Shown here: positions 5,090 to 24,670 of the stretch, piece after piece
Position numbering within the stretch: position 1 is the first letter of the stretch
Layout of the letters: every line of letters begins with the position of its first letter
Assembly (NCBI GenBank): GCA_029266635.1
Contig: JAQSWM010000014.1
Coordinates: 1 to 59,423, forward strand
Reading direction: 5' to 3'
Source of the DNA: Sphingobacteriaceae bacterium
GTDB taxonomy: Bacteria > Bacteroidota > Bacteroidia > Sphingobacteriales > Sphingobacteriaceae
Length of the DNA stretch: 59,423 nt
Notes under the pieces: model-generated
What the model was told of the DNA's origin: nothing
Databases searched by the model: none
The model's input: only the letters and a program-made list of their open reading frames with translations
Made by a program: the position numbers and the translations under genes

Positions 5090-5119
5090 TTGTTTTATGA
5101 ATACCGCTCGTTATCTTTG
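5090..5119 (+). promoter_or_regulatory. Bacteroidota promoter of the small membrane protein/beta-helix unit
   Basis: TTG at 5090-5092 and TATCTTTG at 5112-5119 are separated by 19 bp, matching the Bacteroidota primary sigma consensus TTG-N19-TAnnTTTG. The first ATG downstream (5147) is 27 bp beyond the -7 box. This sits in a 302-bp stretch (4845-5146) between divergent genes in which I see no other feature. Confidence 0.7.
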
Positions 5120-5146: not shown

Positions 5147-5269
5147 ATGAGCACATTGAAAAACACCGCGACAGCATTACCAGCTGTAAACCCATCTTTA
5201 ATTCTCGCTACACTTACAGCAAATCTGGGAGTCATATTCCTGTTTGTGCTGGTTTACGTCCTTTTCTAA
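5147..5269 (+). CDS. 40-residue single-pass membrane protein
   Basis: The protein has a polar N-terminus (MSTLKNTATALPAVNPS) followed by about 24 hydrophobic residues reaching the very C-terminus, ending FLFVLVYVLF. It is preceded by a good promoter and followed 44 bp later by the large secreted beta-helix gene, so it is the first gene of that unit. Its last 15 residues match those of the small protein at 20065-20259 at 10 positions (N-L-x-V-x-x-L-F-x-L-x-Y-V-L-F). I do not recognise the family. The promoter, the tidy reading frame and the conserved tail argue that it is real. Confidence 0.6.
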   Translation: MSTLKNTATALPAVNPSLILATLTANLGVIFLFVLVYVLF

Positions 5270-5313
5270 GTTACAGTCAATTAGTTTTTAACTGCTTTCT
5301 TTTTTAAAAAGTG

Positions 5314-8300
5314 ATGAGAGATCTGCGTTATAAGAATTTGGCTGTGAAATTGGCATTGTCTATATTTTTTGCCACCGCTTCATTGGCTATGCCCCAAAGC
5401 TTATTTGCGGCAAACTATTACTTTTCGAGTTCTACAGGTAATGATCAATATACCAGTCAGCAGGCTCGAAGCCCTCAAACTCCATGGAAGACATTGAGTA
5501 AATTGAACTCCTTTTTTGCCAATATTATGTCGGGTGACAGCATATTGTTCAAACGAGGCGAGACATTTGAAGGAACTATCACCGTCACTAAGTCTGGCGG
5601 TTTTTATGCACCAATTAATTTTGGAGCTTACGGGCAAGGTGCCAAACCGGTTCTTACCGGATTTACTACACTCTCGAACTGGAAGTTGGTGGGGAGTGGC
5701 ATTTACGAAGCTCCGTGCACATCGGATGGAACAATCCTGGTAATTAACGGCGAGCAGAAGGCAATGGGTAGGTATCCCAACTCCGGTTATCTTTCGTACG
5801 AGTCGCATGTCAATAATACCTCTATCACAGACAACCAATCGCTGGCTACAAACTGGACAGGTGGCGAGGTTGTGATTCGGAAGAATCGCTGGACTATTGA
5901 GAAAAGTGCGATCACAAGCCAGTCCGGCGGAACGCTCACCTATGCCACCGGGTCAAAAGCTACGCCAACCAATAACTACGGTTACTTTATTCAGAATCAT
6001 GCAAAAACGCTTGATCAGTTCGGCGAATGGTATTATGATGCTGCCCGTAAAGTAATGATGGTGTACTTCGGGTCAACCAGCCCGTCAACACTAAGTGTGA
6101 AAACCAGTTCTGCAGCCACCCTGATCGATATCCGTAGCGTTGGCTTTATCAACTTTGACGGACTGGCATTCACCGGTGCTGGGCTCAACGCTTTTAAAAT
6201 CAGCAACTCTAAAAACGTAACGATCAAAAACAGCTCTGTGCAGTTTGCCGGTGCTGAAGCCTTATTCGTATCCTATTCACCGGCATTTACGCTCACCAAC
6301 TCCAGCATTACCAACTCGTTTGGAGCCATAAACCTTGATGCTGGCTGTACCACCGCTACAGTCACTGGTAACACAATCAAAGATATTTCACTGATAGCCG
6401 GTTCCGGTAAAAGCGGATTAGGTATCTATTCTGCAATGCTGACCTTCGGCGATAATGCTCTGATAGAAAAAAATACGTTTGAGAATATTGGCTATAACGG
6501 CATTTATCTGGGAGGCAATTCTTCTACTGTTAAGAACAACTTCATTCAGTATTTCTGCCTGGTTGTGGATGACGGGGCCGGCGTATATGTTGGTGATTGG
6601 TCGAATACCTCTAACAAAAAGATCATTGGTAACATAATTCTTAATGGCATAGGTGCGAGCGCCGGAACAAACAGCAGCACACTATTAGCGGCAGAGGGTA
6701 TTTACATCGATGACCTGAGCAAGAGCGTAACAGTTAGCGGGAACACTGTTTCCTTGTGTGCAAACAACGGTATAAAGATTCATGACGCTGCCGATGTGAA
6801 AGTCTTTAATAATACTGTTTACAACAACGGCGTTCAGTTAAGGCTTGAGCAGGACCATTATTCTTCAACCAGCACCTACATCAGAAATCTTGACATAAGG
6901 GCAAATACGTTTTTTTCAAAAAGTGCGAATCAGCAAGTTTCGAAAATTTCTACTCATCAGGATGATGTGCCCATGTTTGGACAATTAGACAGCAACTATT
7001 ATTGCCGTCCTGTTGATGAACTTTCAAACATCACCACTTACCTGGTGAGAAATGGAGTAAACGTCAACAAGGATTATGATTTGAGCGGATGGAGAACAAT
7101 TTTTGGAAAAGATGCGGCTTCAAAGATAAGCCCTGTTGCGATCCCCGCGTATAAAGTAACTGGTGTGCTGGGTTCTAATAAGGTTGCGAATGGTGCCTTT
7201 GATAACAATATATCCGGCCTTTATGCCTATTCTACCATCAACGATTGTACACCTGTATATAGCACCGGAAGTTTAGATGGCGGTGCGCTAAAGCTTACTT
7301 TCAAGTCGGCTGCCGGAAACCATGTTGTTGTAAATGTTAGCACAGGTGCAATTTCTGCCAATAAGAATTATTTATTAAAGTTTAGCCTCCTGGGTAGCGG
7401 CAGTGGCAAGAATCTCACAACTTATCTAAGGAAAACAGGATCGCCGTATACTACTGTGAGCAATGTAAAGTTGTTCCCGATCTCAACATCAAGAACAGAG
7501 AATGAGTACCTGTTAACCAGCACCGCCGACATTGCGGACGCAAGCATCATCTTTGAATTTGATGAGCCTGTAGGCCCTGTTTATATCGACAACATTAAAT
7601 TGACCGAAGCTCAGGTGACTAAAACCAATCCGGCGGACTATATATTGTTCGAGTATAATGCCAGCAGCACGGCAAAGACGCTTACCCTTAGCAGGCCTTA
7701 TGTGGATGTAAGGAAGAATGCTTACTCCAGCAAGATCACCATTAACCCATATTCATCTGTTCTATTGATTGCTACAGATCAGGTTCCTGTAACAGCTACA
7801 GTTGTAGCCACAACACAAACTATCTCGTTTGATGGTTCCTTGCAAACCTACGGCGGTACCCCTTTAACACTTACCCCAACTGCCAGTTCCGGATTGCCCG
7901 TAACCATGCGGGTAGTGTCGGGTCCGGCTCAGGTGAGTGGCAGCACCGTGAACTTCAGTGACTACGGACCCGCGACAATAGAAGCAGTGCAGACAGGAAA
8001 TGAGAGTTTTCAGCCAGCATCAGCTCGCGTTCAGGTAGAAAATGTTCAATCTGTGGGCTCGGGCTCAAACGCCATTGTTACGCCAACGCCTCCTGCCACT
8101 AACACGCCACAGCTTCCTTCAGGCACGAGCACTCCGCAGCTTCCATCCGGCACCGGCACCAGTTCCCCACAGGTTAAAACAAGTGTAGCGTCTAACAGCA
8201 ACGATTCAGAGTTGAGGGCATACCCTAACCCGTTCACAAATAAGCTTACGGTGCAGTTCACTATTCCGGCTACGGCTAACGGAACTTTAAAACTTTACGA

Positions 8301-8469
8301 CATGCAGGGAAGGTTTATCAACCAGATATTCTCGGGAGCGATCAAAGCAAACGAGCTTCAAAGCTTCACCGTTGATGCTAATAACCTCGGCATTGTGCGT
8401 GGAATGTACATTGTAAAGCTGGAAAGCGATAAAAGCGTCCTGACACAAAAGGTGGTACTTGCCAAGTAA
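5314..8469 (+). CDS. secreted right-handed beta-helix protein with T9SS sorting domain
   Basis: A signal peptide (about residues 10-33) leads into ANYYFSS and a GDSILFKRGE motif typical of secreted beta-helix proteins. Residues about 100-520 are a run of N-rich beta-helix coils (polysaccharide lyase-like or glycan-binding). About 620-770 looks like a jelly-roll carbohydrate-binding module. About 830-910 resembles an MBG-like bacterial Ig fold, and about 930-950 is a Pro/Thr/Ser linker with a 9-residue tandem repeat. The end, from LRAYPNPF to KVVLAK (about 968-1051), is a type A Por/T9SS C-terminal sorting domain, so it is exported and probably attached to the surface. ATG 5314 is preferred over GTG 5311. 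Its place at the edge of the EPS locus suggests it binds or trims the polymer. Catalytic residues cannot be assigned. Confidence 0.82.
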   Translation: MRDLRYKNLAVKLALSIFFATASLAMPQSLFAANYYFSSSTGNDQYTSQQARSPQTPWKTLSKLNSFFANIMSGDSILFKRGETFEGTITVTKSGGFYAPINFGAYGQGAKPVLTGFTTLSNWKLVGSGIYEAPCTSDGTILVINGEQKAMGRYPNSGYLSYESHVNNTSITDNQSLATNWTGGEVVIRKNRWTIEKSAITSQSGGTLTYATGSKATPTNNYGYFIQNHAKTLDQFGEWYYDAARKVMMVYFGSTSPSTLSVKTSSAATLIDIRSVGFINFDGLAFTGAGLNAFKISNSKNVTIKNSSVQFAGAEALFVSYSPAFTLTNSSITNSFGAINLDAGCTTATVTGNTIKDISLIAGSGKSGLGIYSAMLTFGDNALIEKNTFENIGYNGIYLGGNSSTVKNNFIQYFCLVVDDGAGVYVGDWSNTSNKKIIGNIILNGIGASAGTNSSTLLAAEGIYIDDLSKSVTVSGNTVSLCANNGIKIHDAADVKVFNNTVYNNGVQLRLEQDHYSSTSTYIRNLDIRANTFFSKSANQQVSKISTHQDDVPMFGQLDSNYYCRPVDELSNITTYLVRNGVNVNKDYDLSGWRTIFGKDAASKISPVAIPAYKVTGVLGSNKVANGAFDNNISGLYAYSTINDCTPVYSTGSLDGGALKLTFKSAAGNHVVVNVSTGAISANKNYLLKFSLLGSGSGKNLTTYLRKTGSPYTTVSNVKLFPISTSRTENEYLLTSTADIADASIIFEFDEPVGPVYIDNIKLTEAQVTKTNPADYILFEYNASSTAKTLTLSRPYVDVRKNAYSSKITINPYSSVLLIATDQVPVTATVVATTQTISFDGSLQTYGGTPLTLTPTASSGLPVTMRVVSGPAQVSGSTVNFSDYGPATIEAVQTGNESFQPASARVQVENVQSVGSGSNAIVTPTPPATNTPQLPSGTSTPQLPSGTGTSSPQVKTSVASNSNDSELRAYPNPFTNKLTVQFTIPATANGTLKLYDMQGRFINQIFSGAIKANELQSFTVDANNLGIVRGMYIVKLESDKSVLTQKVVLAK
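8104..8157 (+). repeat. 27-bp tandem repeat coding the TPQLPSGT linker
   Basis: Two copies of a 27-base unit code for TPQLPSGTS and TPQLPSGTG inside the linker before the T9SS sorting domain of the beta-helix protein. The DNA differs at several third positions, so it is not a fresh slippage product. Confidence 0.75.
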
Positions 8470-9231
8470 CTAGCCTCCCAAAGCACTGTCCTTGGACGGC
8501 TGCCCGATCTTTTTTATTTTTTCTTTCAGCATCAAGCCAACGAATATTGGACCATAGTAGAGGTATCTGCGCCAAAGCCTTTTGGGTTCTTTAACGAGGC
8601 GTACAAACCACTCCAAACCGATATTAATCCAGATTTTTGCAGGGCGATCTACCGTGCCCGCAAAAAAATCGAATACCGCTCCAATGGTGCAGATTATTTT
8701 GGTGTTCAGCTCAGACTTGTGCGCAAATGCCCATTTCTCCTGTTTAGGAGCAGTCATGCCCACGAAGAGCACGTCTGGTGAGAAATTGTTTACAGCGGCA
8801 ATCATCTGACCGTTTTCGTCGCTGCTGAACTCCGGTTTGTACGGTGGAGAATAGCTTCCGACACGAACGTTGGGGAACTGTTCTGCAAGCTTACTTTTGA
8901 TAATGCTCAGCGTTTTCTCAGAAGCTCCGAGGTAAAAGCAACTTCCGCCTTTTTCATTCAGATCTTTTAAGAGAAACTCGTGAATATCAGCCCCGGCAAT
9001 TTTCTTGATCTTCTTGCCCGAGAGTAGTTTTGTCGCTGCAACCACGGCCACGCCATCAGGCAGCAACACATCTGAGCCAAGAAGTGCTTCTTTGAATCTT
9101 TGGTCTTTCTCAGCAACGCAATACGAATATTGATTGATCGTGTTTACCAGCAGGGGAGGTTTGGATGGCAACTGCGAAAGGCTATCTGCATAAACATTAT
9201 ACTCCAGAAAGTTGGCGCTCAGGGTGTTCAT
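8470..9231 (-). CDS. WecG/TagA/CpsF family glycosyltransferase
   Basis: Family motifs are present throughout its 253 residues: DVLLPDGVAVV near residue 60, VLFVGMTAPKQEKWA near 155, GAVFDFFAGTVDRPAKIW near 185, and GLEWFVRLVKEPKRLWRRY near 207. Members of this family (GT26) add a sugar, often an N-acetylmannosamine-type residue, to a lipid-linked acceptor; the exact donor is unknown. It is the last gene of the minus-strand EPS cluster, 52 bp after the GT4 gene, and abuts the convergent beta-helix gene with no spacer. Confidence 0.88.
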   Translation of the reverse strand: MNTLSANFLEYNVYADSLSQLPSKPPLLVNTINQYSYCVAEKDQRFKEALLGSDVLLPDGVAVVAATKLLSGKKIKKIAGADIHEFLLKDLNEKGGSCFYLGASEKTLSIIKSKLAEQFPNVRVGSYSPPYKPEFSSDENGQMIAAVNNFSPDVLFVGMTAPKQEKWAFAHKSELNTKIICTIGAVFDFFAGTVDRPAKIWINIGLEWFVRLVKEPKRLWRRYLYYGPIFVGLMLKEKIKKIGQPSKDSALGG

Positions 9232-9283
9232 AGCTGATGATTGTATAATCCATAAACAAAAATGGCGGTATTTGTTTGAGAGA

Positions 9284-10393
9284 TCAGTTGTTCTGTTCGA
9301 TCACCTTAAAGATGATGTCGGATATTTCTCTGCAAACAGTTTCCTTGCTGAAGAGATGAGATTTTGCAAGATTGTTTTTGTGCATGGTGTCGCGTAACTC
9401 ATGAGATTCCAGGAGCCGGGCAACTGCTTTGGCGATACTGTCGGGATTTTTAGCTTCTGCCCACAGGCAATTTTCGGGTTCAGTGAGATAATCGGTCGCA
9501 GCACGGATCGGTGTGGCCACAATGCTGATTCCCGCTGCTACCGAGTTGAAAAGAGCCATGGGGAAGCCTTCCTGGTCGTAGGTAGGGAACACGAGGATAT
9601 CGCTGTTGGAGTAATAAGGCACGACTTCCTTCTCAGGGAGCTTTCCTGTAAAGATGATGCGTCCATCCAAACCGAGGGCTGCAGCTTTTTGCTTCAAGGG
9701 CTCCAGCGCAAACCCGTCGCCAACAATCACCAGAGTAGTCTTGTATTTGTCTTGAATTGATTTATATGCTTCTAAGATGTCGAACACGCCTTTCACCTCC
9801 ACAATCCTTCCCACATACAGCAAAATCTTATGATCGCCGGGTACGCCAATTTGCTCCCTAAAACCTGCATCTTTAGAAAATTGCCAGGCTCTCACAATAT
9901 TCTTCGCGACAAACACCTTTTGTGGCTCAAAATAGTTGATCGCATCTATTTTGCTCTTCTCTTCGGATGATAGAAATAGCCATCCGGAGATATTCTTCCT
10001 CAGAAATGGCATCACTACATTCCGAATGAATTTACTCTCGCTGTTTAAGGTCCCAATTTCTGAGCCGTGCGATTTAAGGAGAATCAGAACCTTTCGTTTG
10101 TAGAGTGATCTGAACAGTTTGATGGTTATGTAGTCCCGAATGCCGGCTTTTACCTCCAGGCGGGAATTGAAATAGATTATGTCAGGATGAAATCGCTTTG
10201 AAAGCTTAACCAGTGTGAGGGCATTCTTGATAATAATGTACAAGCGGGCAAGCTTTGATTCAAAGCCGTCTTTTGCGTGGTAGGGGAACTGTTCGCAACT
10301 GTATCCAAGTTCTGTTAGCCCTTCAATCTCATCGAGACCGAGGTTGATGTGTGTTTGCGATGGTACGCTGTACAGAATTTTGGTTTGATTCAT
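9284..10393 (-). CDS. GT4-family glycosyltransferase of the EPS cluster
   Basis: A 369-residue GT-B-fold enzyme. The C-terminal half shows LLYVGRIVEVKG (about residue 190), LVIVGDGFA (about 224), IIFTGKLPEKEV (about 247) and the donor-sugar-binding E-x7-E type region FPTYDQEGFPMALFNSVAAG (about 270-290). It probably adds one sugar to the lipid-linked EPS repeat unit in the cytoplasm. It lies 15 bp downstream of the acyltransferase gene in a tight operon. Donor and acceptor cannot be read from the sequence. Confidence 0.87.
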   Translation of the reverse strand: MNQTKILYSVPSQTHINLGLDEIEGLTELGYSCEQFPYHAKDGFESKLARLYIIIKNALTLVKLSKRFHPDIIYFNSRLEVKAGIRDYITIKLFRSLYKRKVLILLKSHGSEIGTLNSESKFIRNVVMPFLRKNISGWLFLSSEEKSKIDAINYFEPQKVFVAKNIVRAWQFSKDAGFREQIGVPGDHKILLYVGRIVEVKGVFDILEAYKSIQDKYKTTLVIVGDGFALEPLKQKAAALGLDGRIIFTGKLPEKEVVPYYSNSDILVFPTYDQEGFPMALFNSVAAGISIVATPIRAATDYLTEPENCLWAEAKNPDSIAKAVARLLESHELRDTMHKNNLAKSHLFSKETVCREISDIIFKVIEQNN

Positions 10394-10408
10394 GGCTTAA
10401 TCAATGAA

Positions 10409-11458
10409 CTATAATGAACCCGAGACATATTTTCCAAGTGGTATCCTGTTAAGTACTTTTATAACGAGGCAGCTAAGAAACAGGCAGATAATAGCAGTTA
10501 ACGGAATCCCTATCCAAGGATTTATCAACTTGTAGTTCACGCCAAAATGCGACAATACTATCAGGATGATAATATGATTCAGGTAAATGCCGAAGCCGTA
10601 TTTTCCTACCGTTGAACGCACCGTAGCAAATCCATTTTGGACAACTGTTTCACCCATCCCCTTGATGAATATAAATGCCGAAACTGACATAAGAAGCACG
10701 TTTATGGATAGCCTGTTGTAAAAAATATCAGAGAATGTGCCGTCACTCGCAGTCAGCCAGTAGGTGCCATATAAGGTAATAGCAAATCCGAGAAGAAAGA
10801 CAGGCACGGCGATGAGCCGCATCCGCTGAGTGATGGTAATTCTTTCGGAAATAAAATATCCAAGCACAACATAGCCAATGTATCCGCTGAAGTAGCTGAG
10901 ATCGAACGGAGTTTTCCATTCAACAAAGCGTTGCTGATTGATTAGCAATGTGAACAGCCATATAGCAAGAAAGTAGATCAGGCCGGCCCTGCTTGCGGTT
11001 TGCGCCCAGGGCTTTATGATCGGGATGAACATGTACACGCCGATTATCATGTACACATACCAGAGATGCACTTCAGAACCCTGGAGCAATTGTTCAAAAA
11101 ACCATGGGAAGAAGTGCCTGCTTTGACTTTCCAAGCCTTCGTCTCTTACTTTGAGCGCAAAATGAAAAATCAGGTAGATGACGAACCAAAACAGAAAGGG
11201 GAGAAGGATCCGGTTAAGCCGGCGCTTCAAAAAGTCTCTCATGCCGATGGACTGGCGCAGCAGGAGGCATCCGGTTATCATCACAAAGACCGGTGTTCCA
11301 AAACGACAGAGAGAATCGTAAAAGTGAGCAATCCACCAGGCGTGGTTTCCATTTTTGTTAAATTCTGCCACCACGCCATCAGCCGCTACGTGCAATATTA
11401 TTATCGCCGTAGTAGATATAAGCTTCAAATTATCTATCCAGGTTGATGGAGCCTTCAC
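10409..11458 (-). CDS. membrane acyltransferase (acyltransferase-3 / OafA-like)
   Basis: About ten hydrophobic segments span 349 residues, with an early helix carrying a histidine (IIILHVAAD, about residue 20) and the RRLNRILLPFLFW stretch typical of acyltransferase family 3. These proteins O-acylate surface polysaccharides, usually with acetyl groups. The start is GTG at 11458, which overlaps the stop of the upstream GT2 gene by 4 bases (GTGA), so translation is probably coupled. It likely decorates the EPS subunit; the acyl donor is unknown. Confidence 0.83.
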   Translation of the reverse strand: MKAPSTWIDNLKLISTTAIIILHVAADGVVAEFNKNGNHAWWIAHFYDSLCRFGTPVFVMITGCLLLRQSIGMRDFLKRRLNRILLPFLFWFVIYLIFHFALKVRDEGLESQSRHFFPWFFEQLLQGSEVHLWYVYMIIGVYMFIPIIKPWAQTASRAGLIYFLAIWLFTLLINQQRFVEWKTPFDLSYFSGYIGYVVLGYFISERITITQRMRLIAVPVFLLGFAITLYGTYWLTASDGTFSDIFYNRLSINVLLMSVSAFIFIKGMGETVVQNGFATVRSTVGKYGFGIYLNHIIILIVLSHFGVNYKLINPWIGIPLTAIICLFLSCLVIKVLNRIPLGKYVSGSL

Positions 11459-12471: not shown

Positions 12472-12472
12472 A

Positions 12473-13960
12473 TTACTTACTAAGCGGAATTGCAGGCTCC
12501 AGTTGTTGATTATCACCCGTCCATTTACTCTGCATAGAATAAATGCCAAATGCAGCTAGTGCAACAGCCGCGGTGACGGCGAATAAGGAAATGTACGGGT
12601 TTAGGCTTTCTGCGATCAAATGGTACAACAGCACAGAACCTCCCAAAAGCACGTAAAACCCGAGGCAATAGAGCGGTGTGGTAATTTTCTTCGATATCAA
12701 AAGCATATCCTGTGCTATGTGAAAGAAAAGGAAGGATGCGAAGATTGAATAATTGATCACGGCCAAGGACTTGCTGAAAAAGTGAAGCCCGATGAAACAG
12801 CCCGCTACATTAATTGCAAAGCTCAGGAGATTGAACAGCATGTCTTTGCTTTCAAGTCCGATGGCTACGATCAGGTTTGCCTGCAACAGAACAGTGGGCA
12901 GCACCAGAAAAGTCAGGAACATCTGTTTCAGGCACAGGTCGGCACCCGGATAACCTGATCCAAATGCAAGGGGAATTACGTCTGTTGCTAAAGCATTCAC
13001 CATGAGATATGATATCAGAGCAAATAATGTATAAAGCAGAAAAACTGTTTTATAAATCTTTTTCAATGCCCGGAAATCTCCCTGATTGTAATACTTTATA
13101 AACTGTGGGAATATGGTACTGCCGGCAATAAGCGGTAAGATCCCGAAGATGGAGAACACACGATATGCTATTTCGTAGTTGGCTACGTCTGCTAAGGTGA
13201 GCATCTTGGAGATGATAATGTTGGCAATACGCCAGTAAATAATAGAAATACTGCCGATCACTATAAATTGCCAGTTCTTGATGACAATCTTCTTCAGGTC
13301 AGTGTAGTCTATTTTCGCTTTTATCAGCGATGATAGCGTGATAGTCCCTTCTGCGCCGACTTTGAGGAATAAGCTTAAGGTCACAATTCGCACTGCTATC
13401 ATAAGTGCTGACAAGACGGCGATTGAGAAGGGTATAACAAAGAGCAAACATCCAACCACCAGCTTCAGAAAGCCATCTATCACCAAAATAGTTGCTGTTT
13501 TCTTTTGCCTGAACTCGGCGATGTTCAAGCTTTTGATGGCATTTATAAAATTATCGAAAATGATGTTTGTGCCTAATATTATGCAGAGAAGCCTTATTTG
13601 CCCATCGGGATAAATTGCGTATGCCATGCCGATATTAACCAGGTAGAATAGTATCCCCAAGCCAACCTGGGTCTTCAGGAATTTGCTGGTAAGCATCAGC
13701 TTGTCTGATTCCGTATCGTACTCTCTGATGAACCACTGCCCCAGGCCCATGCTTGAAAACGCAACAACCAACTGATAAACTGTAGTGGCAATCAGGAACT
13801 CCGCAAACTCAGGCGCAGAGTATTTACGGGCAACAACAACAAAAAATAAGCTTACAAACAGAACTTGTAATACATTGGAGAATACCCCCCAAATGCTATT
13901 TGTTACAAGGGCTGACTGAAGGAACTTAAGATTTTTATGTTGTAGCCATTTCATCAACAT
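12473..13960 (-). CDS. Wzx-like polysaccharide flippase
   Basis: A 495-residue, strongly hydrophobic protein with about 12-14 predicted membrane segments and the layout of the MATE/PST polysaccharide-transport superfamily. It would flip the lipid-linked EPS repeat unit across the inner membrane. The start overlaps the end of the upstream polymerase gene by 26 bp (20 bp if ATG 13954 is used) and its stop is 1 bp before the GT2 start, so the three genes are translationally linked. Family assignment rests on topology and context rather than a sharp motif. Confidence 0.82.
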   Translation of the reverse strand: MLMKWLQHKNLKFLQSALVTNSIWGVFSNVLQVLFVSLFFVVVARKYSAPEFAEFLIATTVYQLVVAFSSMGLGQWFIREYDTESDKLMLTSKFLKTQVGLGILFYLVNIGMAYAIYPDGQIRLLCIILGTNIIFDNFINAIKSLNIAEFRQKKTATILVIDGFLKLVVGCLLFVIPFSIAVLSALMIAVRIVTLSLFLKVGAEGTITLSSLIKAKIDYTDLKKIVIKNWQFIVIGSISIIYWRIANIIISKMLTLADVANYEIAYRVFSIFGILPLIAGSTIFPQFIKYYNQGDFRALKKIYKTVFLLYTLFALISYLMVNALATDVIPLAFGSGYPGADLCLKQMFLTFLVLPTVLLQANLIVAIGLESKDMLFNLLSFAINVAGCFIGLHFFSKSLAVINYSIFASFLFFHIAQDMLLISKKITTPLYCLGFYVLLGGSVLLYHLIAESLNPYISLFAVTAAVALAAFGIYSMQSKWTGDNQQLEPAIPLSK

Positions 13961-15257
13961 ATTCTTCAGGAGGATAAGTTATCATCAGGGTAATCATGCT
14001 CACAACCATCAACAACAGCCTGTAATCATAAATGGAGTAAACGGTATTAAAAGCAACCATCCAGCTAATCATTGATGCCATAAAAAAGACAATCTGCTTG
14101 TAATGCTTGCCCCTGAAGTAATTCACAAGCCCGGACATCAGCGGGACAAAGAGAAATAGAAGAAAGATGGTAAAGCCAATGTATCCGTTCTCAACCAGGA
14201 TCTTGAGGTAGCCATTTTCAGGCTGGTCAAAATAGACCAGTTGCCCATCTTCTATTTCAATGTATTGATCCTGCACATGCCGCATGATATATCGCTGGTA
14301 ATTATTAGTGCCTATACCCAGATAGGGGTGTTTTCTCGATATCTCCAAGGCTTCAGTCCAGATGCTTTGCCTGTACAGATAATCTTCGGAAATGGCTTTT
14401 GTGCGGGAAAATACCCCGGTTGTTGGCGAAATGATGAAGTAAGCCGCAACGCCAAGTACTAATATTATACTTCCGTAAATGCGATATTGTTTGCTCGCCA
14501 TCAGCAATACCAGGAAGAGCCCTACGGCAAACCCGCCAAAGGCCGAGCGGCTGCCCGCCAGCGCAATAGCCGCCAGACAGAACGTGAAGACCCCATAGTT
14601 AAACCAAACTTTCCTGTTTGAATAACTCTCGTGCCGGTATAGAAATAAAAAGCTGCCGAGCGCCAGATATTGGCCGTGTGCCTGCGAATCATAAAATACT
14701 CCAGGATACCGAACTATGTGAAATACCGGATCGATAGTGTTCATAGCCAGCCCGGGATAGAAGGTGAAGCCCAGGCCTACTGCAAGTTGCCCAACGAGAA
14801 AGCCCAGGTCAATCAGAAAAGCAATCTTCAGTGCATTGATAGCCTTCAGGTGAAATGATGGATCATTCACACATTCCGTTATGAAGAAGCGAGCGATAAT
14901 GAAAATCGGCACAGTTTTCAGAAACGTAATCAGAAGCTTGTCAGGGAACTCTGATGCCATTTTCCCTATCATCACCACGATGATGAAGGCCACAGACATA
15001 AAGAAGTAGACGTTTTTTCGGCTTCGAAGATTTATACGTATAAAGTCTTTAATCAAAAAGAAAACGCAGTAATAACTGATCGCATCAAATACCTTAAAAC
15101 CACCATAAGCCTCTTTGGTGATTTTTAAATCCATAAATGGCAGGAAAGCCAATATGAACCACAAGCAGGATTGTACTGTGTTACCCTGTTTAAATGCGTT
15201 ATAAAAAAAGGCAAGTAGGGTTATAACCGGTAAAATGAATATCAGCTTGTCACGCAT
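13935..15257 (-). CDS. Wzy/O-antigen-ligase-like membrane protein
   Basis: A 440-residue protein with about 10-12 membrane segments and one large extracytoplasmic loop (about residues 275-350) that includes SRKHPYLGIGTNNY, typical of the O-antigen ligase/polymerase family. In a Wzx/Wzy-type cluster it would polymerise the repeat units at the outer face of the inner membrane. It is preceded by a terminator-like hairpin at the end of wzc, so its transcription may be attenuated relative to the genes upstream. A ligase role cannot be excluded. Confidence 0.83.
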   Translation of the reverse strand: MRDKLIFILPVITLLAFFYNAFKQGNTVQSCLWFILAFLPFMDLKITKEAYGGFKVFDAISYYCVFFLIKDFIRINLRSRKNVYFFMSVAFIIVVMIGKMASEFPDKLLITFLKTVPIFIIARFFITECVNDPSFHLKAINALKIAFLIDLGFLVGQLAVGLGFTFYPGLAMNTIDPVFHIVRYPGVFYDSQAHGQYLALGSFLFLYRHESYSNRKVWFNYGVFTFCLAAIALAGSRSAFGGFAVGLFLVLLMASKQYRIYGSIILVLGVAAYFIISPTTGVFSRTKAISEDYLYRQSIWTEALEISRKHPYLGIGTNNYQRYIMRHVQDQYIEIEDGQLVYFDQPENGYLKILVENGYIGFTIFLLFLFVPLMSGLVNYFRGKHYKQIVFFMASMISWMVAFNTVYSIYDYRLLLMVVSMITLMITYPPEEYVDEMATT

Positions 15258-15292
15258 TATGATACCTGGCTATACTTGATTCAGGAGAAAAA

Positions 15293-15322
15293 TTTAAGCA
15301 GGTCCATTAGAACCTGCTTAAA
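15293..15322 (-). terminator. hairpin with T-tract enclosing the wzc stop codon
   Basis: On the minus strand an 11-bp perfect stem (15293-15303 with 15312-15322) has an 8-nt loop and is followed by five T. The TAA stop of wzc (15307-15309) lies inside the loop. It probably acts as a partial terminator between the export genes and the polymerase/transferase genes, because the 49-bp gap that follows holds no obvious new promoter. Confidence 0.7.
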
Positions 15323-17664
15323 AATAACTTCAAAGATGTATTGAAGGCCGGCTTGGGCGATTGCGTATAGTAGCTGTTATCGTAAGCGTAACCATAGCCG
15401 TATTTGCCTTTTTTGATGCCGTTGAAGATGATATTCATCCTTGGCAGCTTGCCTTCGTGCTGGACTTCTGAAATAAAATCAAGTTCATCCTTTAATGTAT
15501 GGCCCTGCCGGACAATGTAAAGGGAAACGTCTGCATGGCGGGCGATAATCATAGCGTCTGTCACAAGATGCAGCGGCGGGCTATCGATAATCACATCGTC
15601 ATACCTTTCCTTCAACCCATTTATCAAATCTCCCAATCGCTCACGCTCCAACAATTCTGATGGGTTAGGTGGGATGTAGCCGCTGCCAATCACATCGAGC
15701 GTAGGCACCAAACCTGATGGCTGGATGATATCGTCCAATGGCATGTCAGAGGAAAGGAAATCGCTGATGCCGGAGTGCTCTTTATTCAAATCAAAAATGC
15801 TAAGCACCCGCGGGCGGCGCAGGTCCATCTCCAGGATCACAGTCTTCCGGTCGGTTGCTGCCAGAGAAGCTGCCAGGTTGGAGCTTACAAAGCTTTTTCC
15901 TTCCCCTGCTGTGCTGGATGTAAATAGCGTAACCCTGCCTATGTCTTTTTTGTTGTCGTGCAGATAATGCAGATTGGTCCGCAGAGATCGAAACTGCTCG
16001 CTTATGATGTGCCTTGAGTTGTCAAGTACAATGATGTTTTTGCCCAGATCTTCATAGGACAGTTCGCCGAGAAGGGGAACGTCCACTGCGTTTTCAAGGT
16101 CGCGGCGTTCGGTGATTTTGTTATTGAAAGATTGCCTGAAGAACACAATAATGAATGGCAATCCAAGGCCAATGAGCAAGGCAATTGCAAAAACCAGCAT
16201 CGGCCGAGGCCACTTGATCTCACCCACGTTAGCTTTATCTACTATGCGGGCATCCACAAATGTAGAAGCGTAGCTAAGGGCAAGTTCTTCACGTTTCTGG
16301 AGAAGGTATACGTATAGGTTCTCTTTAATAGATTGCTGCCGTTTCATGCCCACATACTGGCGTTCCTGAACAGGGATGTCTTTAATTGACGACTCAAACT
16401 TGTTGTTAAATGAATCAAGCTGACGTTTGCTACTGAGCAGTGAAGACTTAATTCCTCTGATAGTCTCGCGAATTGCAGACTTTGAAGAAGCTATTTGCCG
16501 GTCGATAGGTTCAAAGGCAGGATTGCCCTCGGGCGTAGTCGCCAGTAGTTCTTCGCGTTTAAGTTGTAGTTCAGCAAGCTTCTCAATCAGGTTGTTCAAG
16601 GCAGGGTCATTAATTCCGATAGTTGCAGGTGCATCGGATGAACCTGATGAGTTAACGTAATGCTCGATGCCGTTTATAATGTTTAATTGGACATTAACTT
16701 CGTTCAGCTTGCTATCATTATTTTGTACGTTTTCGAGATAGAACTTAGACTGTGAGTCGATGTCTGTAAGCCCCTGGCTGCTTCTATAGCCCTCAACCTG
16801 TTTTTCGGCCTTGCTAAGTTCACCGGTTAGAGAAGCCAACCGCTTGTCGATAAAGTCGATCGTACTTTTAGTGGTACGCTTTTCCTCATCGATGCTGACT
16901 TCGTTATAAGTTTTGATCAGATAATTCAGGAAGTCTTTGCCTCTTTTTGGAACGCGGTCTGTAACGAAAAGGCCAATGGTAGGCGCTGCCTTATCCAGCA
17001 GATGAGTATCGAGCTCCTTCAGGTATTCGTTCGCCACCTTTTCAGGATTATTGATGCTTACAGTTACTGTTGAGCCGATATATTGATCAAGAAAATCTGT
17101 CGGTTTTAATACCCAGCGCCCAAAGCCACTTTTAACCAGTTCATTGAACCGATGGGTTTGTTTCCCGCCAGAAAGGTTCTTGACCTCATAGGTATTTGCA
17201 TTTTTAATTGTTACTTCAAATGACTGCTTCTTCAGTAAGTTACCCTTGCCTGCCAGCATGAACCTAAAAGGAGTGGTTTCATATAAATCATCCTTTTTAA
17301 CAAGGCCATCTTTTGCAGAATAGTTAACCCACAACTGAAGGTCGTTTATCACCTTGGTAATGATGTTCTTCGACCTCAGTATCTGAATTTCAGTTTCTGC
17401 GCTTTTAGGCGTACGAGCTTCATCAATCTCCTGCAGGCCGGATTTATCAGGTGCTGCTTTCTTCTCATCTTTTACGAGTATAGTAGCACTGATTTCGTAA
17501 GCAGGATCTACTGTTTTTAAGTAGATCGCTGCTGCAGTGAAGGCAAGTATTAACCCGAGCAGGAATAAAGGCCAGTGATATAAATATTTCTTGGCTATCC
17601 TGCCCAGGTCTGTAAAATGGTTCTCTTTTTTTATGAAGGGCTTCTTTAGCTGTTCAGAGCTCAT
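15307..17664 (-). CDS. wzc: Wzc-like tyrosine-protein kinase / polysaccharide co-polymerase
   Basis: The 785 residues contain an N-terminal chain-length (Wzz-type) domain with a membrane helix at about 30-50, a long coiled-coil periplasmic part (about 240-460), a second helix near 500, and a C-terminal bacterial tyrosine kinase domain. The kinase shows Walker A TAGEGKSFVSSN, the Walker A' strand VILEMDLRRPR and Walker B DVIIDSPP. The tail has a tyrosine cluster (YGYGYAYDNSYY) for autophosphorylation. It controls EPS chain length and export together with Wza, whose gene lies 3 bp upstream. The stop codon sits in a hairpin loop. Confidence 0.93.
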   Translation of the reverse strand: MSSEQLKKPFIKKENHFTDLGRIAKKYLYHWPLFLLGLILAFTAAAIYLKTVDPAYEISATILVKDEKKAAPDKSGLQEIDEARTPKSAETEIQILRSKNIITKVINDLQLWVNYSAKDGLVKKDDLYETTPFRFMLAGKGNLLKKQSFEVTIKNANTYEVKNLSGGKQTHRFNELVKSGFGRWVLKPTDFLDQYIGSTVTVSINNPEKVANEYLKELDTHLLDKAAPTIGLFVTDRVPKRGKDFLNYLIKTYNEVSIDEEKRTTKSTIDFIDKRLASLTGELSKAEKQVEGYRSSQGLTDIDSQSKFYLENVQNNDSKLNEVNVQLNIINGIEHYVNSSGSSDAPATIGINDPALNNLIEKLAELQLKREELLATTPEGNPAFEPIDRQIASSKSAIRETIRGIKSSLLSSKRQLDSFNNKFESSIKDIPVQERQYVGMKRQQSIKENLYVYLLQKREELALSYASTFVDARIVDKANVGEIKWPRPMLVFAIALLIGLGLPFIIVFFRQSFNNKITERRDLENAVDVPLLGELSYEDLGKNIIVLDNSRHIISEQFRSLRTNLHYLHDNKKDIGRVTLFTSSTAGEGKSFVSSNLAASLAATDRKTVILEMDLRRPRVLSIFDLNKEHSGISDFLSSDMPLDDIIQPSGLVPTLDVIGSGYIPPNPSELLERERLGDLINGLKERYDDVIIDSPPLHLVTDAMIIARHADVSLYIVRQGHTLKDELDFISEVQHEGKLPRMNIIFNGIKKGKYGYGYAYDNSYYTQSPKPAFNTSLKLFLSRF

Positions 17665-17667
17665 TTT

Positions 17668-18456
17668 TTATTTCAGGATTGAATAAGTAATAGCAATCAG
17701 AGATAACGCTGAAATGAGGATGCTTGCTTTTGAGTAGCTGTTGTCTACAGTTTCAAGCTTAAGCTTGCTTGGAGTTACCACTATAAGATCATTGCTTTTG
17801 AGGTAGAAATAAGGCGACTCAAATATGTTTTTGGAAGTAAGGTCAATTGGTACATAAACCCGTTTGCCGTCACGTTCTCTAACTAACAGAACATTATCGC
17901 GATGAGCGGTGATGTTCAAATCGCCTGCAAGGGCCAAAGCTTCAGTAAGGGTTAATCTTTCGCTTGCGCTGGTGTAGATGTTAGGGCGCATTACATCACC
18001 TAAAACAGCTACTTTGAAGTTAACTATACGAACAGAAACATTTGGTTCTCTTAAGTAAGTTGTAAGCCTTTGCTGTAATTGGTCAGAAAGTTGTTTTGTT
18101 GTTAAACCGGTAACTTTCATTTTGCCAACAAGCGGAAGGGTAACTTCTCCGTTTTCGTCAACCAGATATCCGTAAGTTGGATTGTTCATGGTATTTGAGC
18201 CCGATGCTGCCAGGTTGTTGTTGAACACAGCAGACGCTTCCGGATTAAGGCTTCCAACGGTAATGGAAACCTGATCGTGCGGTTGTATGGTTAACGATGT
18301 GTAATTGTTTAGGTCGGTAGTGGTAACATTCGACCTGCTTAGATCCTGGAAGTAAGGGATCTTATCATAAGATGCACAAGATGAGAAAAGCGATACAGCT
18401 ATCCCAAGCCCGAAGGCCATTTTGGTAAGTTTGAACAGAGAGGTATTAACTTTCAT
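17668..18456 (-). CDS. wza: Wza-like polysaccharide export lipoprotein
   Basis: A lipoprotein signal (LFSSC, cysteine about residue 27) is followed by the Poly_export domain (LTIQPHDQVSITV, about 55-70, to VTLPLVGKMKVTGLT, about 105-120) and an SLBB domain (VLGDVMRPNIY to about 225). A C-terminal hydrophobic helix, SILISALSLIAITYSIL, is usual for Bacteroidota members, whereas E. coli Wza uses an amphipathic barrel helix. It forms the outer-membrane exit channel for the EPS. Its gene directly precedes wzc, giving the usual pair. Confidence 0.92.
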   Translation of the reverse strand: MKVNTSLFKLTKMAFGLGIAVSLFSSCASYDKIPYFQDLSRSNVTTTDLNNYTSLTIQPHDQVSITVGSLNPEASAVFNNNLAASGSNTMNNPTYGYLVDENGEVTLPLVGKMKVTGLTTKQLSDQLQQRLTTYLREPNVSVRIVNFKVAVLGDVMRPNIYTSASERLTLTEALALAGDLNITAHRDNVLLVRERDGKRVYVPIDLTSKNIFESPYFYLKSNDLIVVTPSKLKLETVDNSYSKASILISALSLIAITYSILK

Positions 18457-18494
18457 GGTTTGATGTTTTTAAAGTGGTACGTAAAATCTTTTCA

Positions 18495-18514
18495 CCAATA
18501 ATCAATTTTATTGG
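18495..18514 (-). terminator. weak AT-rich hairpin between the initiating transferase and wza
   Basis: CCAATAA and TTATTGG form a 7-bp stem with a 6-nt loop in the 67-bp gap. On the minus strand only a short T-run follows some bases later, so any termination would be partial. Confidence 0.3.
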
Positions 18515-18523
18515 CATTTTGTT

Positions 18524-19909
18524 TTAATAGGCGTTCTCTTCGCCTTTAAATACATTTATGATCGTATAGAACACGATTTTTATGTCAAGCATCACAGACC
18601 AATTTTCCATGTACCAGATATCATGTTCCACTCTTTTTTCCATTAAACCCTGCTCTTTGGTCTCGCCTCTAAAGCCGTTTACCTGAGCCCAGCCGCTTAT
18701 TCCTGGCTTTAAGAATTGCCTAACCATATACTTGTCTATGATTTGACGGTATTGTTCTGTATGGGCCAGCATATGTGGGCGAGGGCCGATAACACTCATG
18801 TAACCGAGCAATACATTGAAGAACTGGGGAAGTTCATCAATGCTGGTTTTACGCATAAACTTTCCTATTGGGGTAATCCTGTCGTCGTTTAAAGATGCCT
18901 GGCGCTTGTCGCTGTCGGAGTTCATGCGCATGCTCCTGAACTTGTAGCACCAAAAAGGCTTATTGTCACGCCCGCTGCGCAATTGCTTAAACAATACCGG
19001 GCCCGGGCTTTGGATTTTTATAATGATAGCGAGTAGGGGATAGAGCCAGCTGAAAATGAATACAATTACACCAAGGCTCACAATTATATCGAAGAGACGT
19101 TTTTTGAAACGGTTCTCAATATCTTCCAGTGGCTCTTTACGGGCACACAGGACCGTGAAATTGCCCATTTTGTCAAACCGGAAATTAGTTTCCAAGGCTG
19201 TAAGGTCGGGCACAAACTTTAAGCGGACACACTGCTTTTCGCCTTCTTTAATCAGGTCGGCGAGGTCATTCATTTTATCCGGGTCTACAGAAACAAATAC
19301 TTCCTCAATGCCTGATTCCGCTGCTTTTTTCAATTGCTCTGCAGGAGATTGTACAATTAGTTCGCCGTTCTTGTTAACCTGGCTACGGTCTTCTCCAAGA
19401 AAACCAACAAAATTTAAGCTGCTCTGCTGTTGAAGGTAAGAGGCAAGCTTCAGCCCACCCTGGTTCATTCCCAAAACGGCAACCGCTTTCCGGATGTCGT
19501 ACGTTTTAGTGAGTGCATGCTGGAGTGAAGTACTGGTAAGGCGGCTGAGTATAAACCCTCCTGCAAGCAGTGAGTAGAACGCAATCAGATAAGCTCTTGA
19601 AAAGTCTGTATTGTCTGTAAAGAATAGGTAAGCGATAAATATGAAGCAATGAAGTGCTATGCTTCTCCAGGTAGCCCGATATATATGTTCAAGTTTGTGA
19701 ACGGTTCCTTCTGCATATAAGGCGAAGACTCCGGTGCAAACAACCCAGATCAGGTTGCTTATCATGACATTGTTCCGGTACACATCCCGATCTATATAAA
19801 TTCCGTATTTGTTAGCTAAATAGTATCCGAGGAAAAAACAAAAGTTGAATATAATCAGGTCGCTAACGGCAAGAGCAAAACGAAGTAGGTAAAAGTAGCG
19901 TGTTTCCAT
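18524..19909 (-). CDS. polyprenyl-phosphate glycosylphosphotransferase (initiating enzyme)
   Basis: Four to five membrane helices (about 1-130), a Rossmann-like CoA-binding-type middle (about 140-250) and the C-terminal bacterial sugar transferase domain make up 461 residues. Domain motifs include FKQLRSGRDNKPFWCYKFRS, TSIDELPQFFNVL, SVIGPRPH and KPGISGWAQVNGFRGET. This WcaJ/WbaP-type enzyme loads the first sugar-1-phosphate onto undecaprenyl phosphate and so starts each EPS repeat unit. It lies at the head of the wza-wzc genes. Whether the sugar is glucose or galactose cannot be read. Confidence 0.92.
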   Translation of the reverse strand: METRYFYLLRFALAVSDLIIFNFCFFLGYYLANKYGIYIDRDVYRNNVMISNLIWVVCTGVFALYAEGTVHKLEHIYRATWRSIALHCFIFIAYLFFTDNTDFSRAYLIAFYSLLAGGFILSRLTSTSLQHALTKTYDIRKAVAVLGMNQGGLKLASYLQQQSSLNFVGFLGEDRSQVNKNGELIVQSPAEQLKKAAESGIEEVFVSVDPDKMNDLADLIKEGEKQCVRLKFVPDLTALETNFRFDKMGNFTVLCARKEPLEDIENRFKKRLFDIIVSLGVIVFIFSWLYPLLAIIIKIQSPGPVLFKQLRSGRDNKPFWCYKFRSMRMNSDSDKRQASLNDDRITPIGKFMRKTSIDELPQFFNVLLGYMSVIGPRPHMLAHTEQYRQIIDKYMVRQFLKPGISGWAQVNGFRGETKEQGLMEKRVEHDIWYMENWSVMLDIKIVFYTIINVFKGEENAY

Positions 19910-20046
19910 ATAAGTAGTTTTGAAAGAAAATACCTTTGGTGCTAATCAATCAGCGGTAGATGCTGGGTAGATAAAAAGCATTTCACAGCTGATTATTCAA
20001 CTACTATGCCAAACGGGTGTGGAAGGTATGATGATAAAGCGGGGAT

Positions 20047-20062
20047 TTCGCCCAGAGGCGAA
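20047..20062 (-). other. small GC-rich hairpin after the small membrane protein gene
   Basis: TTCGCC and GGCGAA form a perfect 6-bp stem with a 4-nt loop right after the stop codon. There is no T-tract, so it is more likely an RNA-stabilising or processing element than a terminator. The rest of the 155-bp gap before the glycosylphosphotransferase gene shows nothing I can name. Confidence 0.3.
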
Positions 20063-20064
20063 GC

Positions 20065-20259
20065 TTAAAACAGAACGTAAAGCAGAATAAACAGGGCAAG
20101 AACAAGCAAATTCCCTAAAATTAACCCTACTATATGCAAAACTCTCAGTTTTGCGCTCTCATTGACATCTATGGGATGTGCCGGTACGAGCTTTTTACGG
20201 GTAAATAGCGTAAATACGTCTTTGTTCCACTTCCGTGCAGTGTCTTTTATATTGGACAT
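20065..20259 (-). CDS. small membrane protein with conserved YVLF tail
   Basis: From ATG 20259 the protein has 64 residues: a basic cytoplasmic part (KDTARKWNKDVFTLFTRKK), then one membrane helix ending NLLVLALFILLYVLF at the C-terminus. The open frame extends to a TTG at 20358, but that TTG overlaps a possible -7 box (TATTTTTG, 20356-20363), so I prefer the ATG. The last 15 residues match the 40-residue protein at 5147 at 10 positions, and both small genes sit beside a secreted beta-helix gene. The family is not recognised; a role in assembling or anchoring the export machinery is only a guess. Confidence 0.6.
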   Translation of the reverse strand: MSNIKDTARKWNKDVFTLFTRKKLVPAHPIDVNESAKLRVLHIVGLILGNLLVLALFILLYVLF

Positions 20260-20410
20260 TCTGCCGCGAAAGGAGAACTTTGCTGATTTCCTTTTAACGG
20301 AGGCTTCTATTATGTTATTATCGCGATCCACTATAATGGCAGAAGTGTTTAACAACAAAAATAATAAATTAGTTTATTTATTCTCAGGTAAATTGGTGTA
20401 AGCCCGCTCT

Positions 20411-21730
20411 TTACCTCTGCTCAAAAGCTCCGATATCTGGCTCCTCACGTACCGGCCGCTTAATGCCTGTATAATCAAAAGGGCTATAAATTTCAGGATT
20501 CCCGCAATTCACGGCTGGGCTACGCAGTTTAAGACGGAAGTCTGCCCGAATGTTCTTCGACGGCTTTTCAAACATCGGATCCACGTTTTCTGTGCATGTT
20601 ACGTTTGTGATCGCCGTCTGTACTTTACGCCGGTTGACATTGTAGTGCAGGTTGTTCCTGTAAACCAAATCCGAATTCTTGAAATTATAGTTGATGAGCT
20701 TATCGCGATCTGTTACCAGAATGTTATTCACAATTCGGATATCACCACTTACTCCGGCCTGTATTTGGCCAACCTCCAGTTCGCGGCTCTGGGCATTGCG
20801 GTATGCAGTGTTGTTAAAAATGTCGACATGATCGCTTTGGAATGTGTGAATGCCAGTGCCGCCGTTAAACCAGCATATGTTGTTTTCAATCAAAGTCCTG
20901 CCGTGGTAAGGGCCCAGCGATGAGCCGTTCTGCTCGTTTCTGAAATCATCAATAATAATTCCGTTGCCGTCAGCAATCCTGCACAGGTCGGCCCATTTCA
21001 CAAAGTTGCGGTTATTATAGCATTTGTTGTTGCGTATGATATTGTGATACCCATTTGCCTGGTCGAAATTCCAGAATTGGTAGAATGAAATTCCGCTGGT
21101 ACCGAAAACGGTGTACCAACTGGTATTGTAAATAGTATTTCCTTCTGCCGTGATATAATCCGCCTGCGAGGCGCCAATGCCTCCTCCGCCACAATCGTGT
21201 ATAACATTGTTTAAAATTTCTATGTGGTGCGGGTGCTGGCCCTGTTTTCCTGAAATGGCTATTCCGTTGCCATTAAAAGCCGGATCATACTCGCCCTCCT
21301 TGTTGTCGCAGCTCCCTGGCTGTTTTATCGCCTTGCGCAGAGATACATTCTCGTTATTGCCGATTATCTCGAAACCTGTAATCTTAATATAGCTGATGTT
21401 TTTCGCGATGGAAAATCCGGCCCAGCCGTTAAAGCTTATAACCGGTGAATGCCCGGGATAATTTTTGTAAATAATATATGCCGACTTGGTGCCACTAACT
21501 GGTATATCTACTACATTGCATGACGAACAGTCGTTGAAGTAAGTTCCATTCATTACCAAAACCGTGTCGCCGGCCTTAGTAAGGTTGGCAGCTTCCTGGA
21601 TGGTGCGCTTAGCTTGTCCGGGGCTTTTACCACTGTTCTCAGGGCTGCCTTTTTTGGAGCTTACGTAATAGTTAGTAGCGTATAAGTTTGTACAGGCAAA
21701 CAGCGCCAGGCCGAAAAAGAGCAACCTCAT
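20411..21730 (-). CDS. secreted right-handed parallel beta-helix protein
   Basis: ATG 21730 gives a clean signal peptide (MRLLFFGLALFACTNLYA) and a 439-residue protein. The longer frame to 21790 runs upstream through the promoter and is rejected. After ATNYYVSSKKG comes the GDTVLVMNGTY motif and then repeated coils (about 130-360) such as HIEILNNVIHDCGG and NNICWFNGGTGIHTF, as in PL9/PL1-like or DUF1565 beta-helix proteins. The C-terminus (DIGAFEQR) is a common end for this class. No T9SS sorting domain is visible, so it may stay in the periplasm. It is the first gene of the EPS transcript and probably modifies or binds the polymer. Confidence 0.82.
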   Translation of the reverse strand: MRLLFFGLALFACTNLYATNYYVSSKKGSPENSGKSPGQAKRTIQEAANLTKAGDTVLVMNGTYFNDCSSCNVVDIPVSGTKSAYIIYKNYPGHSPVISFNGWAGFSIAKNISYIKITGFEIIGNNENVSLRKAIKQPGSCDNKEGEYDPAFNGNGIAISGKQGQHPHHIEILNNVIHDCGGGGIGASQADYITAEGNTIYNTSWYTVFGTSGISFYQFWNFDQANGYHNIIRNNKCYNNRNFVKWADLCRIADGNGIIIDDFRNEQNGSSLGPYHGRTLIENNICWFNGGTGIHTFQSDHVDIFNNTAYRNAQSRELEVGQIQAGVSGDIRIVNNILVTDRDKLINYNFKNSDLVYRNNLHYNVNRRKVQTAITNVTCTENVDPMFEKPSKNIRADFRLKLRSPAVNCGNPEIYSPFDYTGIKRPVREEPDIGAFEQR

Positions 21731-21747
21731 TATGCGTAGATTAGGTT

Positions 21748-21777
21748 CAAATATAGATGGTGCAGAACGCAAAACAA
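21748..21777 (-). promoter_or_regulatory. Bacteroidota promoter of the EPS operon's first gene
   Basis: On the minus strand TTG (plus-strand CAA at 21775-21777), 19 bp and TATATTTG (plus-strand CAAATATA at 21748-21755) match the consensus exactly. It lies 17 bp before ATG 21730 and so also fixes the start of the beta-helix gene. Confidence 0.78.
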
Positions 21778-21825
21778 ACAGATTAAACACTTAATGGTTC
21801 AGCTAAGAACACAGAATAGCTCTTC

Positions 21826-24627: not shown

Positions 24628-24628
24628 C

Positions 24629-24655: not shown

Positions 24656-24670
24656 AATGTTTTAACACCT

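Follow-up and report, generated by a model that had tools for sequence, protein, structure and literature searches.

BcsF and other small bacterial membrane subunits are single-helix accessories of larger complexes, including those of cellulose synthesis. In this study, we analyzed two small proteins, sm40 and sm64, encoded at the two ends of an exopolysaccharide (EPS) locus in a 59,423-nucleotide stretch of DNA from a Sphingobacteriaceae bacterium (GenBank assembly GCA_029266635.1, contig JAQSWM010000014.1; this whole stretch is hereafter the window). By that general description they would resemble BcsF as single-helix accessories of a larger membrane complex. They appear to belong to an undescribed family of single-pass membrane proteins of 34-73 residues, whose genes are linked to genes for the N-terminal membrane domain of WcaJ-type enzymes (WcaJ-N, taken as WcaJ residues 1-152). 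These enzymes start polysaccharide repeat units on undecaprenyl phosphate.

A described protein of similar size, also a small single-pass inner-membrane protein of the capsule/EPS pathway, is RmpD of Klebsiella pneumoniae. According to the excerpted description of RmpD (PMC10294653), this protein has 49-58 residues, interacts with Wzc and gives no convincing signal with WcaJ in a bacterial two-hybrid assay; its sequence varies and its architecture is conserved, with an N-terminal helix and a charged cytoplasmic C-terminus. That description sets RmpD apart from the present family, in which the helix is C-terminal in 14 of 14 core members and the linkage is to WcaJ-N.

On the enzyme side, excerpts of the account of Salmonella enterica WbaP (PMC10942596) describe a helix bundle, a PF13727 domain and a catalytic core, and a dimer in which the helix bundles leave a large central void, presumed to be filled with lipid. 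The same excerpts call the roles of accessory domains in large phosphoglycosyl transferases (PGTs) unclear, assign nucleotide sensing to the domain of unknown function and not to the helix bundle, and place large-PGT N-terminal domains also in PglF-like dehydratases. The gene next to the small-protein gene encodes a protein of the WbaP layout; the excerpted account of the WbaP dimer mentions no small partner. A literature search at the level of titles and abstracts found neither a small partner of WcaJ or other PGTs nor a fusion of WcaJ-N with Alg14.

A preliminary description of the window had proposed that twin cassettes, each a small membrane protein plus a beta-helix protein, bracket the EPS locus. 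The features concerned are as follows.

5090-5119, + strand: promoter-like TTG-N19-TAnnTTTG before sm40 (pattern match)
5147-5269, + strand: sm40, which has 40 residues, belongs to the small C-terminal-helix family and is the first gene ahead of bh1 (open reading frame (ORF) reading; tail alignment)
5314-8469, + strand: bh1, 1051-residue secreted beta-helix protein with a type IX secretion system sorting tail (Pfam Beta_helix 1.6e-19, Por_Secre_tail 1.2e-9)
18524-19909, - strand: wcaJ, large monotopic PGT, the proposed partner (Pfam CoA_binding_3 1.7e-9, Bac_transf 2.4e-64)
20065-20259, - strand: sm64, 64-residue family member, followed after 155 bp by wcaJ in the same orientation (alignment; relatives likewise upstream of wcaJ)
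20411-21730, - strand: bh2, secreted beta-helix protein upstream of sm64 (Pfam Beta_helix 3.7e-7; NCBIfam choice-of-anchor Q 4.1e-8)
21748-21777, - strand: promoter-like TTG-N19-TAnnTTTG before bh2 (pattern match)

Both small ORFs are present beside beta-helix genes as that description had them, and its count of 10 identical positions among the last 15 residues is correct (NLGVIFLFVLVYVLF in sm40 and NLLVLALFILLYVLF in sm64); when one tail was shuffled, this identity was reached in 4 of 200,000 trials. For the whole proteins, global alignment gave a z score of 6.7, with 0 of 5000 shuffles as good, and local alignment was equaled by 5 of 5000 shuffles. Because of the tail match and a common MSx[IL]K[DN]TA N-terminus, sm40 seems to be a shorter relation of sm64; plain BLASTP, which finds a mere 5-residue match at E 0.33, weighs against the similarity. 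Of all ATG-initiated ORFs of 20-130 residues in the 59-kb window, leaving aside those mostly covered by an ORF of 250 or more residues, sm40 and sm64 alone end in a strongly hydrophobic stretch of 18 residues. The 64 residues of sm64 are counted from ATG, and an in-frame TTG start would make 97; the bh2 ORF is open from GTG at 21790, with its likely start at the ATG at 21730.

The two arrangements differ, and the cassettes are not twins: the order is sm40 and bh1 (44 bp apart) at one edge, and bh2, sm64 and wcaJ at the other. Both cassettes were also said to start at exact promoters. The two matches exist, as part of four in the window against 1.12 expected (four or more in 2 of 100 shuffles), and the -7 box of the first lies 35 bp before the sm40 ATG; the one at 21748-21777, however, opens the second cassette by preceding bh2 and not sm64, whose upstream 200 bp contain only a TATTTTTG, 104 bp upstream.

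Neither sm40, sm64, the 98-residue ORF of a third copy (sm63) nor 10 relatives matched a Pfam or NCBIfam family above cutoff. The best matches below cutoff, 0.0014 in NCBIfam and 0.0041 in Pfam, were all to unrelated families. Single-sequence searches of 150 genomes with sm40 and sm64 gave, as far as examined, chance-level hits outside this genome. Profile searches of 301-399 related genomes, together with wcaJ-centered searches, yielded a core of 14 members in 11 genomes. Profile A4, built from the three copies of this genome and run against 301 genomes, produced one convincing new ORF, for a 73-residue protein of genome G033, which, like sm64, immediately precedes wcaJ-wza-wzc. A GTDB scan based on three WcaJ proteins (their N-terminal 284 columns) found 14 loci, three with a small protein upstream of wcaJ: Paradesertivirga mongoliensis (72 residues), Sphingobacteriaceae ES-bin-166 (73 residues; judged to be the G033 locus) and Mucilaginibacter sp. 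RYN_308 (34 residues, ending GNLLVAVVLSLVYFLF). Among the other 11, L192 ends right after wcaJ, and the distant wcaJ relatives L199-L203 were viewed upstream on the same strand. Profiles A6 and A7 (399 genomes each) added proteins from G331 (E 6e-4), G274, G424, G430 (E 2e-4) and G244 and a second RYN_308 copy, G453:C5; all six adjoin a WcaJ-N-domain gene. The G274 protein is 47% identical to that of G331, and G453:C5 was later matched at 8.7e-8 by a model not containing it, in a database of collected-locus ORFs. sm40 and sm64 were recovered by A4, A6 and A7, which contain them.

Other profile hits were examined and dropped: 10 of 28 non-member loci of A4; L209, L212, L213, L220, L224, L225 and L228 of A6; and L246-L248, L250, L254 (a 38-residue ORF after an apparent symporter), L255, L257 and L262 of A7. 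The remaining retrieved loci were tested for WcaJ-N only, and among hits with no retrieved locus G453:C5 was the one inspected.

All 14 core members have one hydrophobic C-terminal helix with a [GAS]-N-[LM] core, the Asn lying 15-16 residues from the C-terminus. A C-terminal helix with [GAS]-N-[LIVM] and this spacing of the Asn was found in 19 distinct ORFs of 14,661 (30-110 residues), 14 of them the core members; this ORF set is redundant and enriched in hits and the profile selects for the helix pattern, so the result is partly by construction. The N-terminal part is variable and usually basic, with a net charge before the helix of +1 to +6 in 12 members and -1 in two. By the positive-inside rule, a basic flank stays in the cytoplasm. 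The N-terminal part is therefore predicted to be cytoplasmic, and the proteins would be single-pass.

Related copies retain their protein sequence. For P. mongoliensis and ES-bin-166, the proportions of synonymous and nonsynonymous differences (pS/pN) are 0.76/0.12, with 36 of 56 changes at third positions; for G331 and G274 they are 0.62/0.34. These values support purifying selection on the family protein sequence, and translation, in the related copies that the test covers; sm40, sm64 and sm63 have no close relative.

Twelve of the 14 core members, sm64 included and sm40 and sm63 excluded, lie 8-433 bp from a WcaJ-N gene. Some precede that gene in the same orientation (window, 155 bp; G011, 257; G033, 214; RYN_308 (G453), 411 and 433; G331, 186; G274, 175), others are convergent downstream (G424, 42 bp; G244, 119; G047, 15; G020, 8), and that of G430 is flanked by a divergent WcaJ-N gene at 119 bp and by wcaJ at 650 bp. 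Relatives of the tail thus occur beside EPS genes, where the preliminary description had suggested looking for them. Among retrieved profile loci, WcaJ-N was present in 1 of 29 for A4, 6 of 30 for A6, of which three had contributed to the profile, and 6 of 26 for A7, of which four had done so, and every such locus holds a family member. Within 1.5-kb flanks, WcaJ-N was not found at any of the 54 loci given by weak single-sequence hits or of the 32 loci of exosortase Y (XrtY).

A search with WcaJ residues 1-152 gave 56 places in 41 of 149 genomes. At 33 places examined (29 of 30 retrieved loci, L289 being cut, plus L296, L297, L298 and G084:C215), a small protein was present at nine: the window, G011, G033, G047, G020 and four genomes of genus g18. 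Those of G047 and G020 match the family profile at 6e-5 and 0.0075. All four g18 genomes examined have a 49-residue candidate convergent with wcaJ, recognized by position and a [GA]-N-[IV] core only, with 21 residues from the Asn to the end versus 15-16 in the core. In these candidates pS/pN ranges from 0.13/0.03 to 0.63/0.29 over five pairs (0.60/0.14 for G191 and G181). The start positions of wcaJ gave no sign of a long N-terminal extension suggesting fusion with a small protein, the N-terminal side being the one covered.

On a tree of 45 WcaJ-N rows (43 different, with some duplicates or near-copies, G430 as a long branch, and L192 scored as lacking the gene although its contig ends after wcaJ), the small gene requires 8 gains or losses versus 13.2 with shuffled labels, and 3 of 500 shuffles were as low. 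It is present in all three Alg14 chimeras described next and in all four g18 rows. Repeated loss of an old partner and repeated pairing would both fit this pattern.

The window WcaJ has the large PGT layout (N-terminal helix bundle, PF13727 and Bac_transf PF02397), with four hydrophobic segments within residues 6-121. In G331, G274 and G430, however, the nearest WcaJ-N gene carries Alg14 instead of the catalytic domain. The first 152 residues of the G331 and G274 chimeras match WcaJ with 34% identity (E 2e-24 and 2e-28), and their C-terminal parts match Alg14 (3.7e-10 and 1.6e-9); the G430 chimera is 30% identical to WcaJ-N (E 3e-16 by tblastn) and matches Alg14 at 1.4e-9. An Alg13/PssE-like glycosyltransferase follows the chimera in G331 (Glyco_tran_28_C 3.3e-16) and, by eye, in G274. 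By these domain matches, the chimeras (L234 10248-11111, L235 7192-8055 and L306 9788-10657, with the Alg13/PssE-like gene beside the first two) are a domain swap, in which the anchor of a priming enzyme has been made the anchor of a different sugar transferase. The constant neighbor of the small protein is the membrane domain, not the catalytic domain.

Given this family, the selection on its related copies and a linkage to WcaJ-N that holds across gene orders and catalytic domains, we consider the small proteins somewhat better than evenly likely to be accessory subunits of the WcaJ-type membrane domain. The partner would be the N-terminal membrane domain of WcaJ-type enzymes and of the Alg14 protein with a related membrane domain. 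An Asn residue within a transmembrane helix is known to promote contact between helices. Most likely the Asn-bearing helix packs against WcaJ-N as an accessory subunit and would tune the stability, assembly or activity of the enzyme; both the direct binding and the tuning are what we infer. In this genome an additional copy, sm40, precedes bh1 at the opposite end of the EPS locus. It is speculation by analogy that the central void of a WbaP-like dimer could seat the extra helix.

A broader and more tentative proposal, which we hold with less than even confidence, is that the WcaJ helix bundle is a membrane module that is portable and has a tiny, detachable subunit of its own, and that the pair has been reused to seat different lipid-linked sugar enzymes, either a PGT or an Alg14/Alg13-type glycosyltransferase, the small helix tuning the first committed step of EPS synthesis. 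If so, this helix would be an unrecognized accessory of that step. The small protein accompanies the WcaJ bundle in different gene orders, at sites apart from export operons and where the bundle is fused to Alg14, and so offers a handle on the role of the bundle. Bacterial polysaccharide synthesis could also be controlled through it at the priming step. With members of just 34-73 residues, it is also an example of a family that neither Pfam nor NCBIfam contains.

Several observations weigh against an accessory role at WcaJ-N. Both core members that are not beside wcaJ, sm40 and sm63, are in this genome, which has these two extra copies away from its one recognized wcaJ (a single WcaJ-N match at E<=1e-10). 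BLASTP of sm64 against the 98-residue sm63 ORF gives no alignment. At 24 of the 33 examined wcaJ places there is no recognizable member, and four of the nine positive places are those of the g18 proteins, which the family profile does not match at E<=1. G024 and G084, the closest relatives of the whole EPS locus, have no family member. Five members were outscored by unrelated hits, namely G033 (0.0057 with A4), G424, G453:C5 and G274 (0.0136, 0.0236 and 0.10 with A6) and G244 (0.024 with A7), and position helped in accepting them; for G033 the tail (GNLIVCLLFLLIYLVML) and position decided. Finally, hydrophobic segments above threshold in the first 150 residues number two in the G331 chimera and three in that of G430, versus four in WcaJ.

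An alternative that we consider unlikely is that a different EPS component, Wzc above all, is the target of the small proteins, whose genes would lie near wcaJ only because wcaJ opens the wza-wzc operon. The other EPS genes of the window are listed here.

8470-9231, - strand: WecG/TagA-type glycosyltransferase (Pfam 5.9e-52)
13935-15257, - strand: Wzy/O-antigen-ligase-like polymerase (Pfam Wzy_C 8.2e-19)
15307-17664, - strand: Wzc (Pfam Wzz, GNVR, AAA_31)
17668-18456, - strand: Wza (Pfam Poly_export 1.4e-19, SLBB)

The wza and wzc genes follow wcaJ in the window, G011, G033 and G430, a wzc-like gene was recognized by eye in G331, and RmpD, as excerpted (PMC10294653), is a precedent for a small inner-membrane protein interacting with Wzc. 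However, the pairing with wcaJ persists elsewhere. In the g18 genomes G181, G186 and G196, the candidate small gene is kept convergent with a wcaJ located among apparent housekeeping genes (L301, L302 and L303), with no match to the window wza, wzc or wzy within 18.5, 12.8 and 15.0 kb around wcaJ, respectively (coverage in the fourth, G191, was 3.7 kb). The core members of G020 and G047 likewise have no wza or wzc match in the surrounding 19 and 16 kb, and in G424 and G244 the small gene is on the side of wcaJ away from wza-wzc.

The preliminary description instead saw a two-gene unit, in which the small protein exports, anchors or regulates its beta-helix partner. Both window copies do adjoin beta-helix genes, sm40 standing just before bh1 behind a promoter match, and at least 4 of the 12 wcaJ-linked members have a beta-helix-type gene no more than about 2 kb away: the window, G244 (protein 60% identical to bh2, Pfam Beta_helix below cutoff), G424 (Pfam match below cutoff) and G047. 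Near the other eight, none was recognized within that distance, mostly by eye, and a Pfam scan of neighbors in G274, G020 and, for the 34-residue protein, RYN_308 gave no beta-helix match. Homologs of bh2 (6 places outside this genome) and of bh1 (11 places) have no family member in their available flanks, as judged with the profile over all ORFs. The EPS locus is mostly recognizable in G024 (same order, without wcaJ) and G084 (bh1 moved beside bh2), at about 47-68% identity, and the gaps before bh1 and after bh2 in both contain no small membrane ORF of the family kind. A beta-helix cassette was thus rejected, as conserved adjacency is absent in the available flanks of all 17 homolog places. 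The constant partner of the small gene is the WcaJ-N gene and not the beta-helix gene, despite some co-occurrence. We regard the two-gene unit as quite improbable; what stands of the function suggested for it is regulation of the EPS machinery, through the WcaJ-N linkage, whereas export, anchoring or regulation of the beta-helix protein is unsupported.

Beta-helix-type proteins recur beside wcaJ in their own right (L236 6359-7729, L307 6409-7728, L299 8335-9897 and window 20411-21730), and by eye one accompanies wcaJ without a small gene in L195-L197.

A leader peptide or an antisense transcript controlling wcaJ expression, rather than a functional protein, would account for the position of the short ORF, which in most core cases precedes wcaJ in the same orientation and in others is closely convergent with it. 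The synonymous excess in related copies and the conserved C-terminal protein sequence argue for a protein, and positions that are same-strand, convergent or divergent with gaps of 8 to 433 bp do not suit such control, which leaves this explanation with little probability.

The third paralog, sm63 (G000:C8:157456-157647, - strand), has 63 residues from an internal ATG of the 98-residue ORF and was found as a weak hit (E 0.051) on searching this genome with sm64. Its alignment with sm64 was equaled by 0 of 5000 shuffles locally and 2 of 5000 globally; with sm40, 438 of 5000 shuffles were as good, which is not significant. It lies 66 bp upstream of a polysaccharide deacetylase gene and about 4.6 kb from the gene for XrtY (G000:C8:162268-162870, or L093 6268-6870, - strand; NF046083, 205.9 bits versus a cutoff of 160). 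Exosortase substrates have a C-terminal tripartite signal of motif, helix and basic cluster. Inspection of sm40, sm64 and sm63 found no basic cluster after the helix, and the family profile, run over 32 other XrtY loci (up to 10 kb on each side, some cut by contig ends), detected no member; the small hydrophobic ORFs of those loci are unlike the family. An XrtY substrate was thus rejected on the incomplete signal and the 0 of 32 loci, and the wider notion of a generic small hydrophobic protein (e.g., a type I toxin) or XrtY substrate, suggested by small size, hydrophobicity and the XrtY gene near sm63, is very improbable given also the helix at the very C-terminus and the linkage to wcaJ.

A second polysaccharide cluster, in which wza- and wzc-like genes were recognized by eye, is located near the XrtY gene. 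Adjoining the EPS locus of the window, an 859-residue protein (2265-4844, - strand) has AMP-binding, carrier and thioesterase domains, the last just below cutoff, and resembles a one-module nonribosomal peptide synthetase. Genes for tRNA-Gly and tRNA-Leu are located at 24555-24756 (+ strand), and the short ORFs near them on both strands are probably spurious.

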